A DNA stretch of 64,000 nucleotides from Methanotorris igneus Kol 5 (GTDB taxonomy: Archaea > AGJL01 > Methanococci > Methanococcales > Methanococcaceae), in contig NC_015562.1 of assembly GCF_000214415.1 (NCBI RefSeq), positions 186,001 through 250,000 of the forward strand. The letters are read 5' to 3'. The notes under the pieces were generated by a model. It had not been told where the DNA came from. It ran no database searches and was given only the letters and a program-made list of their open reading frames with translations. The position numbers and the translations under genes are program-made. Positions 7,962 through 41,113 of the stretch are shown here, piece by piece; the first letter of the stretch is position 1, and every line of letters begins with the position of its first letter.

Positions 7962-8028
7962 CATCTGCACCTCAAAAGTGTTTAGATGTTTGTTATTGAA
8001 TTTTTTTGGAATTTAGTCTGGTGTTATA

Positions 8029-8140
8029 TAGTCAATGACAGAAGATATTAAAATAATATTTAAGGTAAAAATGGTTGTCTCCCTAATGAGAGACAATCAG
8101 ATATTCCTTAGTCAATTTTAAAAAGTTTTGTCACTGGCTA
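8029..8140. mobile_element. Family C miniature inverted-repeat element, copy C2
   Basis: The 112-bp element begins TAGTCAATGACA and ends TGTCACTGGCTA, flanked by TA at 8027-8028 and 8141-8142. A central hairpin, TTGTCTC/GAGACAA, lies at 8074-8096. It aligns throughout with the reverse complement of copy C1 at 12292-12400. It is non-coding. Confidence 0.8.
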
Positions 8141-8520
8141 TAATTTTTATGTTGTTTAGCGTTATTCCAAATCAAAAAGGTAAATATTGAATTTCTTTAT
8201 AGTTATAAAATGAGTATCAAAAATTTTGCAAACTACTGTGCCTTTATAATCTCGAATAGCATTAAAATTATCATTTTTATTTTGTTTTTGTCACTTTATA
8301 CTTTATTTTTTCATTAATTTAGGGCTTATTCTGAGTATGAATATCATAAATAAAGAAATCTTTATATAAAATAAGGAAAACTTTAAATAATATGGTTGCT
8401 ATTATTACCATTTGTATCAAAAACATGTTTTGGTAATAACATAAATAGAAAAGTATATATATGATAATACTAATTTTAGAAATAATAATAAATAATGCAG
8501 CATAGGATAGGGGAGATATT
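8141..8520. other. AT-rich gap with an inverted repeat and a likely promoter
   Basis: No gene is seen in the 380 bp beyond element C2. TTATTACCA (8402-8410) is inverted at 8431-8439 (TGGTAATAA), a possible operator or transcript hairpin. TATATATAT at 8454-8462 lies at a suitable distance to drive the small gene at 8521. Confidence 0.4.
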
Positions 8521-8854: not shown

Positions 8855-9108
8855 AAGGATGATGCCTCTGATGAAGGTGGATACTGGAGACCTAAGGAGG
8901 CGGACTTTACTGAGTGTTAAACCTATGGGCGGAGCTGGGGTTCTCCCGGAGCGAAGCGACGGGAACTTAAAAACCGTTAGGTTTTTATGTCCGTGACAGG
9001 GATGGAGACCGATGATATGTTCCCGATGAACCCAGAGGGAACTGAGGCCGATGACATCCAAGTCCAACGTGGGCATTTGTCTATGATTGTTCACGTTGGA
9101 CAGACCCC
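8855..9108 (+). ncRNA. GC-rich structured RNA, copy 1 (hgcC-like)
   Basis: A GC-rich island that aligns with copies on the minus strand at 13789-14097 and 54146-54306. The 5' end is estimated from a TATA box at 8826. Visible pairings are GGGGT (8939-8943) with ACCCC at the 3' end (9104-9108), a CCCG/CGGG stem around GAGCGAAGCGA, AAAAACC/GGTTTTT with a GTTA loop, GTTCCC/GGGAAC (9022-9045), and GTCCAACGTG/CACGTTGGAC near the 3' end. GATGA and CTGA motifs beside the stems suggest kink-turns that could bind L7Ae. It resembles the high-GC RNAs (hgc, perhaps hgcC) described in M. jannaschii; that identity is from memory. It ends 1 bp before the convergent archease stop. Confidence 0.75.
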
Positions 9109-11122: not shown

Positions 11123-12246
<1,124 letters not shown>

Positions 12247-12477
12247 TATGAATTAACTTCATCACCTTCTTAATATTGTGTAAAGTAATTATAGTCAGTG
12301 ACAAAACTTTCTGAATTAAATAAGGAATATTTGACTACCTTCCTAATGGAAGGTAGTCATTTTTACCTTGATTAATTTTAATACCTTTTGTCACTGACTA
12401 TAAAAAACACAAAACCCATAACATTTAAAGAATTTTGATATAATTACATATTTATATGTTTGATGAGAACTATGGTT
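12247..12477. repeat. Repeat D, copy 1 (interrupted by element C1)
   Basis: Bases 12247-12289 and 12403-12477 match the reverse complement of 20167-20283 almost base for base (ATGAATTAACTTCATC, then CTTCTTAATATTGT; AACATTTAAAGAATTTTGAT, then ATAATTACATATTTATATG and TTTGATGAGAACTA). The two halves are separated here by element C1. Non-coding. Confidence 0.8.
12292..12400. mobile_element. Family C miniature inverted-repeat element, copy C1 (filled site)
   Basis: The 109-bp element has perfect 15-bp terminal inverted repeats (TAGTCAGTGACAAAA / TTTTGTCACTGACTA), a central hairpin GACTACCTTCC/GGAAGGTAGTC, and TA on each side (12290-12291, 12401-12402). The uninterrupted copy of the host repeat at 20167-20283 has a single TA at the same point, so this is an insertion with a TA target duplication. 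It encodes nothing and must have been mobilised in trans. Confidence 0.9.
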
Positions 12478-12815: not shown

Positions 12816-13742
12816 GTGATAGAGAGAGCAAAAATATCTCATGAAAACAAAGTTTCAGATGGACTTAAGAAATTTAGTAATATTATTATTGATGAGAGGA
12901 ATTACGATACATTTATCTGGACAAAAGAGATTTTATACAAAGAAGATTTGAAAATTTGGGCCGAATCTATAGCAAGCGAAATTGAAAAAGGAAAAAATAT
13001 ATACAACATGGCACGACTCTACCGTGTTAATGATGTTAAAAGTTTAATGGATTTGGCTTATAGTTATGGAGTTGAGGTTTTTGACACTTCAAACCCACAG
13101 AGATTTAAAGAATTGAGAAAATTTGCAGAGGAAGGGCTAAAAGGCATAAAAAGTAAAGTAATAACCATAATGGGGACTGGGAGACAGTGTGGAAAATTTA
13201 CGACATCCTTTATTCTTAAAAAAGAATTGGAAAAAAGAGGTTATAGTGTTGGTGTTGTTGGGACTGACCCACATGCATTGTTGTGTGGAGCAGATGAAAT
13301 GGTTATTCCACAAGTTATAGAAGCCTGCCATGTAGCTCCAACAATATTCGGTGCAGTAAAAAAGGTAGATCTAATGGATAAAGATGTCATTATTGTTTCA
13401 AGCCAGACTGGAATCCTTGCTGATGCTTTGGAGGTTGGAACAGGTAGGGGAGGGGGAGTTATAAGCACGGCAATTTTAATGGGCTCAAAGCCAGATTTTG
13501 TGATATTGGCTACAAAAGAAACCAATATAGAACTAATAAAAAAGAATATCAAAATCATAGAACTCCTAAGCGATAAAGAGGTTATAGGAATTACATTCAA
13601 CAGCAAAAATTTAGGACATGAGGAGACAAAAAGAACAATAGAACATCTAAGTTCTAAGTTAAATTTACCTATTGCTGATGTCGTGAAAAATATCAACTTA
13701 AAAGAGCTAATAGATTGTGTCGAAGAGCATATATCAAAGTGA
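12816..13742 (+). CDS. P-loop NTPase-like protein, DUF1611-type
   Basis: GTG at 12816 follows GGGAG at normal spacing. The N-terminal 100 residues are helical. From about residue 113 comes a nucleotide-binding fold: ITIMGTGRQCGKFTTSFIL is a Walker-A-like loop (GTGRQCGKFTT), followed by VGVVGTDPHALLCGADEMV, VIIVSSQTGI and a TGRGGG loop. The order fits the DUF1611 group, in which DgcN-type enzymes modify acidic amino acids, but substrate cannot be inferred. The protein is cytosolic and monocistronic, with mobile-element debris upstream and a CRISPR relic 22 bp downstream. Confidence 0.7.
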   Translation: MIERAKISHENKVSDGLKKFSNIIIDERNYDTFIWTKEILYKEDLKIWAESIASEIEKGKNIYNMARLYRVNDVKSLMDLAYSYGVEVFDTSNPQRFKELRKFAEEGLKGIKSKVITIMGTGRQCGKFTTSFILKKELEKRGYSVGVVGTDPHALLCGADEMVIPQVIEACHVAPTIFGAVKKVDLMDKDVIIVSSQTGILADALEVGTGRGGGVISTAILMGSKPDFVILATKETNIELIKKNIKIIELLSDKEVIGITFNSKNLGHEETKRTIEHLSSKLNLPIADVVKNINLKELIDCVEEHISK

Positions 13743-13788: not shown

Positions 13789-14097
13789 GGGGTCTTCCCG
13801 ATGTGAGTGTAAGTGAATTTTTATACTCGTAGAAGAGTTTTGCCATAATATTTGGGTGACATCGGCCTCAACTCTCCTCTGGGTTCATTGGAGAGTAAAT
13901 CATCGACCTCCACCCCAGCCACGGACATAAAAACCTAACGGTTTTTAAGTTCCCGTCGCTTCGCTCCGGGAGAACCCCAACTCCGCCTATGCAATGGTTT
14001 TAACCCTGCCCTCTTGGGACTCCATTTTACTCCCGCATCTGGGCAGGAGTATAAAAAACTCCCAACCGAAATCGTACAGACTTACAAGATTAAACAC
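13789..14097 (-). ncRNA. GC-rich structured RNA, copy 2 (hgcC-like)
   Basis: On the minus strand this shares with copy 1 a 60-nt block of near identity (GGGGTTCTCCCGGAGCGAAG, then CGACGGGAACTTAAAAACC, then GTTAGGTTTTTATGTCCGT), CCGAT/TCGATGAT-type motifs, AATGAACCCAGAGG and the terminal GACCCC. It has a longer 5' region with GGGAGT/ACTCC stems, and its 3' stem has diverged. The 5' end is inferred from a TATA box at 14129-14123. Length is about 309 nt. Confidence 0.7.
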
Positions 14098-20110: not shown

Positions 20111-20166
20111 TCTACCACCATAAATTTTTAATTATCATTTCACTTAAGGATCTATTTACAACATAA

Positions 20167-20283
20167 CCGTAGTTCTCATCAAACATATAAATATGTAATT
20201 ATATCAAAATTCTTTAAATGTTATTAGGTTTTGTGTTTTTTAATTGCTTTACAATATTAAGAAGGCGATGAAGTTAATTCATG
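20167..20283. repeat. Repeat D, copy 2 (empty site for element C1)
   Basis: The reverse complement of this 117-bp stretch is the uninterrupted form of 12247-12477. At the insertion point it reads GCAATTAAAAAACAC with a single TA. Lies just upstream of the lone ATPase gene. Confidence 0.85.
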
Positions 20284-34884: not shown

Positions 34885-35597
34885 ATTTTCATCCCCCTAT
34901 GGGTCTGATTTTAACTATTTAAAGGACTTGTGGAGTGAATTACCTATACAGTAATTTCCATCCCCCTATGGGTCTGATTTTAACACTAACATAAAAAGAA
35001 GATAGAGAAGAGAAGATATAAGTTTCCATCCCCCTATGGGTCTGATTTTAACACAGTCATAATCATAGCAAAACCCATTGCCAGCATGTAATGTTTCCAT
35101 CCCCCTATGGGTCTGATTTTAATTTTTTGAAAAAGAAGCCCAAATAAACGACCTAATGGAGTTTCCATCCCCCTATGGGTCTGATTTTAATTAAATTTTA
35201 TTAATTCATCAATATATTTATATGTAATGTTTCCATCCCCCTATGGGTCTGATTTTAATCATATTTGGAGGCAGAGGATAACAATTATCAGAACATGTTT
35301 CCATCCCCCTATGGGTCTGATTTTAATTATATTAGTGAGATAGCACAAGCAACGGAGAGTATAGTTTCCATCCCCCTATGGGTCTGATTTTAATCGAGGT
35401 TGGTGTTTCGTGGCACAAAATTAGAAAACTTAGTTTCCATCCCCCTATGGGTCTGATTTTAATTAGAAGTGGATTTAGTGTTGAGAGAGGTTAAAGCAGT
35501 TGTTTCCATCCCCCTATGGGTCTGATTTTAATTTCGTTGTTGAAAATATTCCTTAGACCATGTATCTGTTTCCATCCCCCTATGGGTCTGATTTTAA
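34885..35597 (-). CRISPR. Type I-D CRISPR array: 11 repeats, 10 spacers
   Basis: Repeats of 30 nt start at 34885, 34954, 35022, 35093, 35161, 35229, 35297, 35364, 35433, 35502 and 35568. Spacers are 36-41 nt (39, 38, 41, 38, 38, 38, 37, 39, 39, 36). The plus-strand repeat begins GTTTCCATCCCCCTATGG and ends TGATTTTAA. The two leftmost repeats are the degenerate ones, so the leader is on the right and the transcript runs leftward, giving an ATGGAAAC handle on each crRNA. Confidence 0.97.
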
Positions 35598-40727: not shown

Positions 40728-40799
40728 GAAAAAACATAAAAAAATAGTGTTAGAATGGATGCTAACTTTATAGTCTCGGACATTAATAAGTGGAAATTA
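40728..40799. mobile_element. Family B element relic B3
   Basis: TAGTCTCGGACATTAATAAG then TGGAAAT (40771-40797), preceded by TA, is the reverse of the right end of B1. It is cut at 40799 by family A copy A2. Sequence after A2 (TATTCAAAACCAAAATTTT, 41141-41160) resembles the interior of B1, so A2 is nested in B3. Confidence 0.55.
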
Positions 40800-41113
40800 T
40801 AGTTGTGTGCGTTAGAGATATTTGGCAAAATCCAAAGGATTTTGCCGTATAATTTGAAAAGAAACCTTTAAAAAAGGTTTCATCCAAATTGGATGCACTA
40901 CCTCGCTTCGCTCGGTAGTGCCTCTTAGATATGTTATAGCTATGTGTTATAATTTGAAATATTAATTTGGAAATATGCTGTTGGTGAATTTTTAATGATT
41001 GTAAGCCATTTCAAATTTTAAGGAAGAATTATTACTATTTGAAATTCATTAATGTATAAATATAAACGGCAAAACCCATAAGTTTTGCCGTATATTAATT
41101 CCGCACACAACTA
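40800..41113. mobile_element. Family A element, copy A2, carrying hairpin element H
   Basis: A 314-bp element with terminal repeats TAGTTGTGTGCG (40800-40811) and CGCACACAACTA (41102-41113), TA on both sides. Palindrome P occurs twice (40824-40851 and 41068-41094). Between them is hairpin element H (40861-40927), absent from A1, which explains the extra length. No coding capacity. Confidence 0.8.

Follow-up and report, generated by a model that had tools for sequence, protein, structure and literature searches.

How did two copies of one repeat in the genome of the hyperthermophilic methanogen Methanotorris igneus come to differ by a short block of DNA with a TA on each side? The window that we analyzed, a 64-kb stretch, comprises positions 186001–250000 of one 1,854,197-base contig with 30% G+C. 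The original prediction held that 12247–12477 and the reverse complement of 20167–20283 are the same repeat, filled at the first place and empty at the second, and the coordinates, the TAs and the alignment all agreed with this description. The analysis below indicates that the block is, with high probability, an IS630-type (IS630-Tc1-mariner) MITE moved in trans by a transposase that is now lost or located outside the chromosome.

The element and its insertion site

The element is a near-perfect palindrome at 12292–12400 (plus strand), 109 bp long between two TAs, and belongs to the non-autonomous kind (MITE). The alignment of empty and filled sites in the window marks these TAs, the left at 12290–12291 and the right at 12401–12402, as the two copies of the duplicated target. 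The ends of the element are TAGTCAGTGAC (12292–12302) and GTCACTGACTA (12390–12400), and its terminal inverted repeats pair over 17 outer base pairs, TA included, with zero mismatches. The perfect end TAGTCAGTGAC was confined, within the 64-kb window, to the two ends of this element. When one mismatch was allowed, four sites were detected, compared to 0.27 expected from shuffles; the two additional sites were the ends, in opposite orientation, of another copy of the element, a 112-bp sequence at 8029–8140 on the minus strand that has diverged to about 77% identity and has TA at 8027–8028 and 8141–8142. No ORF of at least 100 aa in the window list overlapped 12292–12400, and the element lies between genes, with an RsmB/F-type methyltransferase gene (11123–11917, minus strand) on one side and a DUF1611 gene (12816–13742, plus strand) on the other. 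The window also contains an inverted pair of 92 bases (8925–9016 and 13899–13990) that is 92% complementary.

The repeat that hosts the element is split into a left part at 12248–12289 and a right part at 12403–12477 (both plus strand), and its empty copy at 20165–20283 (minus strand) has a single TA at the insertion point. Besides a 111-base gap, corresponding to the element plus one TA, the reverse complement of 20167–20283 showed only small differences from 12247–12477. Five uninterrupted contiguous copies of the host repeat were present in the same genome (206151, which is the window copy, 875959, 325035, 1783379 and 450268), and the exact empty site AATTAAAAAACAC was found in four of the five, including the window copy. 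After the 111 bases were removed from the filled copy and the remainder was aligned to the other five, CAATTAAAAAACAC stood at the insertion point in four; copy 450268 was diverged at this point, yet uninterrupted. With one filled copy against five uninterrupted ones, insertion into a pre-existing repeat is the simple reading. A search of the genome with the empty sequence yielded 13 matches, including shorter partial ones, and two of these were the halves of the filled copy. The ATATTTATATGTTTGATGGGAACTACGG stretch of the host repeat (20165–20283 and its relatives) also occurs elsewhere in the genome without the rest of the repeat.

Copies across the genome and in relatives

A blastn search of the genome with the element gave 34 rows in all, of which five were full-length copies at 93–100% identity, the query place included, and the others were diverged, truncated or on the reverse strand. 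Two further copies were 98–99% identical to the 12292–12400 element, so its spread looks recent. A covariance model was built from eight copies and scored on 150 candidates per genome, a design in which diverged copies may be missed. It returned 24 matches in the genome, corresponding to at least 14 distinct places after strands were merged (eight were used for model building). The same model had zero matches in 21 other genomes of the family among the 150 candidates scored in each. A TA stood outside both element ends at all 12 places where both ends were read, a count that leaves out the partial or altered copies 1795609 and 350034. None of the 14 places was internal to an ORF of 100 aa or longer; at six of them the start or end of an ORF overlapped the element, and those ORFs were mechanical calls. 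In the copy at 415746 (L036 1503–1505), the upstream frame terminates on the first three element bases, TAG; in the sister species G021, that frame stops about two residues earlier.

The joined 200-base flanks of nine places were searched in 22 genomes, and six stretches of G021 were compared. The sister species has the neighboring genes of several element places. At the equivalents of 1321562 and 415746, the G021 sequence continues past the orthologous point with the element absent, small differences there blurring the exact TA; at 841063, 40380, 351269 and 194027, the alignments to G021 end at or before the junction. The original prediction had proposed a search for further copies and for more empty sites in relatives, and both were recovered here, the copies by the covariance model and the empty sites in G021. 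To judge from the sequences compared, two of the insertions are absent from the sister species, and the element occurs at several unrelated sites in its own genome.

The exact 17-base end, searched in 84,980 genomes (perhaps not including our own), occurred in 16 stretches, with a single match each and all in bacterial records, which we read as chance. There were five single matches in 2.9 million viral contigs, and the element itself had zero matches in plasmids and phages. At up to two mismatches, the end was found at 30 sites in the own genome and 14 sites across nine others among 36 genomes, and a control gave 22 sites over all 36; given this control, the sites outside the own genome, taken as a whole, are at chance level. 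Four of these sites were in the relative G017, three of which (C17, C96 and C80) resemble IS ends and one of which (C75) does not.

Folding of the element

As RNA, the 109-bp unit folds into one long hairpin of −53.5 kcal/mol (z −13.1), and among eight copies six pairs were changed on both sides, compared to 1.3 in shuffles, none of 500 reaching six. Both results favor the reading that the unit was retained as a structured RNA or regulatory hairpin and not as a mobile element. The paired changes may reflect selection on the hairpin or merely palindrome arms staying matched; they come from eight copies that are related to one another, with one diverged copy contributing most, and any palindrome with matching arms would show them. 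The MITE reading does not depend on these changes. Retention as an RNA, which we consider very unlikely, is further opposed by the way in which unrelated places carry near-identical copies, two of which are absent in G021, and by the lack of an Rfam match over the gathering score at the element. Elsewhere in the window, Rfam reported three CRISPR repeat matches, with direct-repeat matches at 1831–1943 and 34954–34984.

Relationship of the ends to IS630 elements

The assignment of the mobile element to IS630/Tc1-mariner had been guessed from the TA alone, and it gained ground from IS630 elements of G017 that end in similar sequence. Among 36 genomes of the order, the IS630-type DDE profile PF13358 had matches in two, those of G017 and G033. 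The G017 IS630 (E 9.3e-28) is 1114 bp long from TA to TA, both TAs counted (L112). Its transposase consists of two overlapping frames with helix-turn-helix and DDE_3 domains and is about 37–41% identical to archaeal plasmid proteins, some of them annotated as IS630 family transposase. The mutual homology of the G017 copies ends at TATAGT[CT]AAG[AC]ACATAATT... termini. Over the 21 bases beyond TATAGTC, the 109-bp element shared 14 with the best G017 IS end, and 68 of 50,000 shuffles were as good when the best of the G017 ends was taken each time. Two other G017 ends are TATAGTCAGGAACAAAA, and one is the left end of a 133-bp unit. This unit is an internal-deletion derivative: the middle of the IS is missing, and each end is similar to that of the IS. 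The IS and the 133-bp unit thus show, in a relative, a similar end on an IS630 as well as on a MITE.

The G017 IS630 and its derivative (L112, L214) share with the 109-bp element the TATAGTCA... ends and the TA flanks, and the IS encodes a DDE_3 transposase. They differ in the interior, where clear homology to the G017 IS was not found beyond the ends, and the ends are 19–22 of 28 bases identical, by which the G017 IS630 is not the direct parent. Because this closest match comes from another genus, a direct parent was not identified. As background for the end similarity, 120 TATAGYY 28-mers, minus those with four prefixes of the element family, left 105, two of which scored 19 and 17 of 21 and the rest at most 12, compared to 14–15 for the G017 ends. 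The two high-scoring 28-mers are probably further ends of the element family that the prefixes missed. The G033 IS630 was rejected as a source of the ends, since its own ends, TATAGTGTTTTTC/TATAGTTCTTTTC, were 17–18 of 28 identical and gave no special match.

Search for a transposase

The original prediction described the window as free of transposases and proposed a genome search for one with matching ends. The first point was checked in part: of 65 listed ORFs (100 aa or longer), the 10 that surround the two repeats included no Pfam transposase, and PF13358 had zero matches in the entire genome. In the proposed search, no IS630 transposase was found in the own genome with PF13358, NF033545 or a protein search, nor in the sister species G021 with PF13358. 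NF033545 gave six matches in the own genome, none of which reached the cut-off and all of which were confined to the initial portion of the model. At the four places for which ORFs were listed, these corresponded by sequence to one IS481-like transposase, intact or split; two IS481-like proteins that were tested scored best with the IS481 model, still under its cut-off. The protein search had a best E of 0.057 in the own genome, within the frame of another gene, and this weak match at 1269392 was rejected as a transposase, as it sits in a 151-aa frame that by eye resembles a universal stress protein. Inspection by eye of 48 end matches (at most three mismatches of 17) revealed no facing pair 0.5–3 kb apart that could represent an autonomous copy. 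Among viral contigs, there were nine candidate stretches for relatives of the G017 transposase, and none was confirmed.

The own genome carries near-identical copies, some of them broken, of an IS481-like insertion sequence about 980 bp long, at 1652127, 1149932, 156090, 250960, 405443 and 903567. A resident transposase of another family, such as this one with its near-identical copies at six places, could be proposed as the agent that mobilizes the element; the IS481-like ends, TGTTGTATCC/TGTGGTATCC, are unlike TATAGTC, and this reading appears extremely improbable.

Nor is there any real likelihood that precise excision produced the empty copies from an ancestral filled repeat: excision does occur in cut-and-paste elements, and the host copies are paralogues, so the direction rests on parsimony, but excision would have had to clear the element from all but one of six contiguous host copies, and the element is present at 13 other places, two of them element-free at the orthologous point in G021. 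The original prediction had itself named precise deletion as the counter-explanation, and this would require that five paralogues each lost the element cleanly and that it was lost in the relative as well. Its central claim, insertion at TA with duplication of the TA, is upheld by the uninterrupted host copies, the two element-free orthologous sites and the TAs outside both ends at every place counted.

The element has the features of an IS630-derived MITE, namely, terminal inverted repeats, TA duplication, a short length without a transposase gene and several unrelated sites. IS630-like ends were found only by comparison with the IS630 of another genus (G017), and an IS630 transposase in the same genome, which is usual and not required, was absent by PF13358. 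For an IS630-type MITE, a DDE transposase acting in trans on the gene-less element would recognize both ends (TAGTCAGTGACAAAA...), cut the element from its donor site and join it to a TA dinucleotide, and repair would leave a TA on each side. The IS630 transposase may have been lost from the chromosome, or it may be carried by a plasmid or virus.

A second family of TA elements

Another TATAGTC-ended repeat family occurs genome-wide; its ends are TATAGTCGTGTGCG/CGCACACGACTATA, and it is found in the window at, for example, 12205–12218 and 40798–40811. At up to one mismatch, the TATAGTCGTGTGCG end was counted 206 times in the own genome, eight times in G021, twice in G020 and not at all in 19 other genomes; its reversed control had zero occurrences in the own genome. 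With the distance for end pairs set to 40–400 bases, paired ends of the TATAGTCGTGTGCG type (at most two mismatches) bounded units of 112 to 363 bases at the own-genome loci examined. Palindromes of about 30–40 bp, GGCAAAAYCY..RGGRTTTTGCC(GTATA), were observed in units of the second family (L057, L059, L182, L186 and L189). Several positions may either have or lack one, which gives these palindromes the look of insertions in their own right.

Hybrid units, which combine an end from the 109-bp family with an end of the TATAGTCGTTTG kind, were located at 779844–779912 (L038, 69 bases) and 356418–356482 (L053, 65 bases). The copy at 415746–416123 reaches 378 bases through an internal 265-bp unit that has TA on both sides and the ends TAGCCGTTCTAC...GTAGAACGGCTA; removal of this unit leaves 113 bases, both TAs counted, which align over their full length with copy 1269892. 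The 40380 copy lies near the end of a unit of the second family. Its junction reads GGGAAGT-TA-AATAAC, and the uninterrupted copies have GGGAAGTTGAATAAC or GGGAAGTTGAATAAT/C-like sequence there. By this comparison, the target TA of the 40380 copy corresponds to TG in the uninterrupted copies of the second family.

Based on the 206-end family and the hybrid units, we think that the larger story is a set of TA elements with a common outermost end. As a tentative extension, and one we hold to be rather unlikely in full, the 109-bp, TATAGTCGTGTGCG and TAGYCGTTCTAC families could form an orphan guild of TA-inserting MITEs, nested and hybrid-ended, that share little beyond the outermost TATAGTC/TATAGCC and are cross-mobilized by one transposase from an extrachromosomal source. 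Cross-mobilization between families would be the inferred step here.

Discussion

The element adds a member to a familiar class of small genomic parasites. The repeat unit of pneumococcus (RUP) is about 107 bp long, A+T-rich, targeted to TA and without a reading frame, has ends like those of IS630-Spn1, and is present in about 108–110 copies with an IS630 in the same species (PMC2229807, PMC3049150). By description, the 109-bp element resembles RUP in size, A+T richness, TA target, IS630-like ends and the lack of a frame; it differs in its 14 model places, its archaeal host and a resident IS630 that was not found. Correia/NEMIS elements of Neisseria are about 107 bp long in the short form, have terminal inverted repeats with a terminal TA, and were sized via filled and empty sites (PMC2229807). 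Size, terminal TA and this way of sizing are alike on that account, whereas sequence and host differ. Correia ends begin TATAG.

Among archaea, the Sulfolobus MITEs SMN1 and SM3A are described as non-autonomous, moved in trans, linked to ISC1733 and ISC1058, and 320 and 164 bp in length (PMC3718332). By that description, they are non-autonomous archaeal elements like the 109-bp element, but are larger and have other IS links. Archaeal MITEs are listed for Sulfolobus, Halobacterium, Haloquadratum, a Desulfurococcus and "several other" genomes, possibly including methanogens (PMC10969869). In the literature covered, to which subscription papers mostly did not belong, no description of such an element was found for Methanotorris, Methanocaldococcus or Methanococcales.

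As far as sequence comparison can tell, the MITE insertion appears real, well supported and apparently recent. It is ordinary in kind; the lack of a transposase seems unusual, and similar elements seem abundant. The locus offers clean filled and empty evidence for an IS630-type MITE in a methanogen lineage, and the question of where the transposase comes from arises, given that the copies are near-identical and a resident IS630 transposase was not found. The 206-end family suggests a large contribution of small TA elements to the intergenic DNA in this genome.
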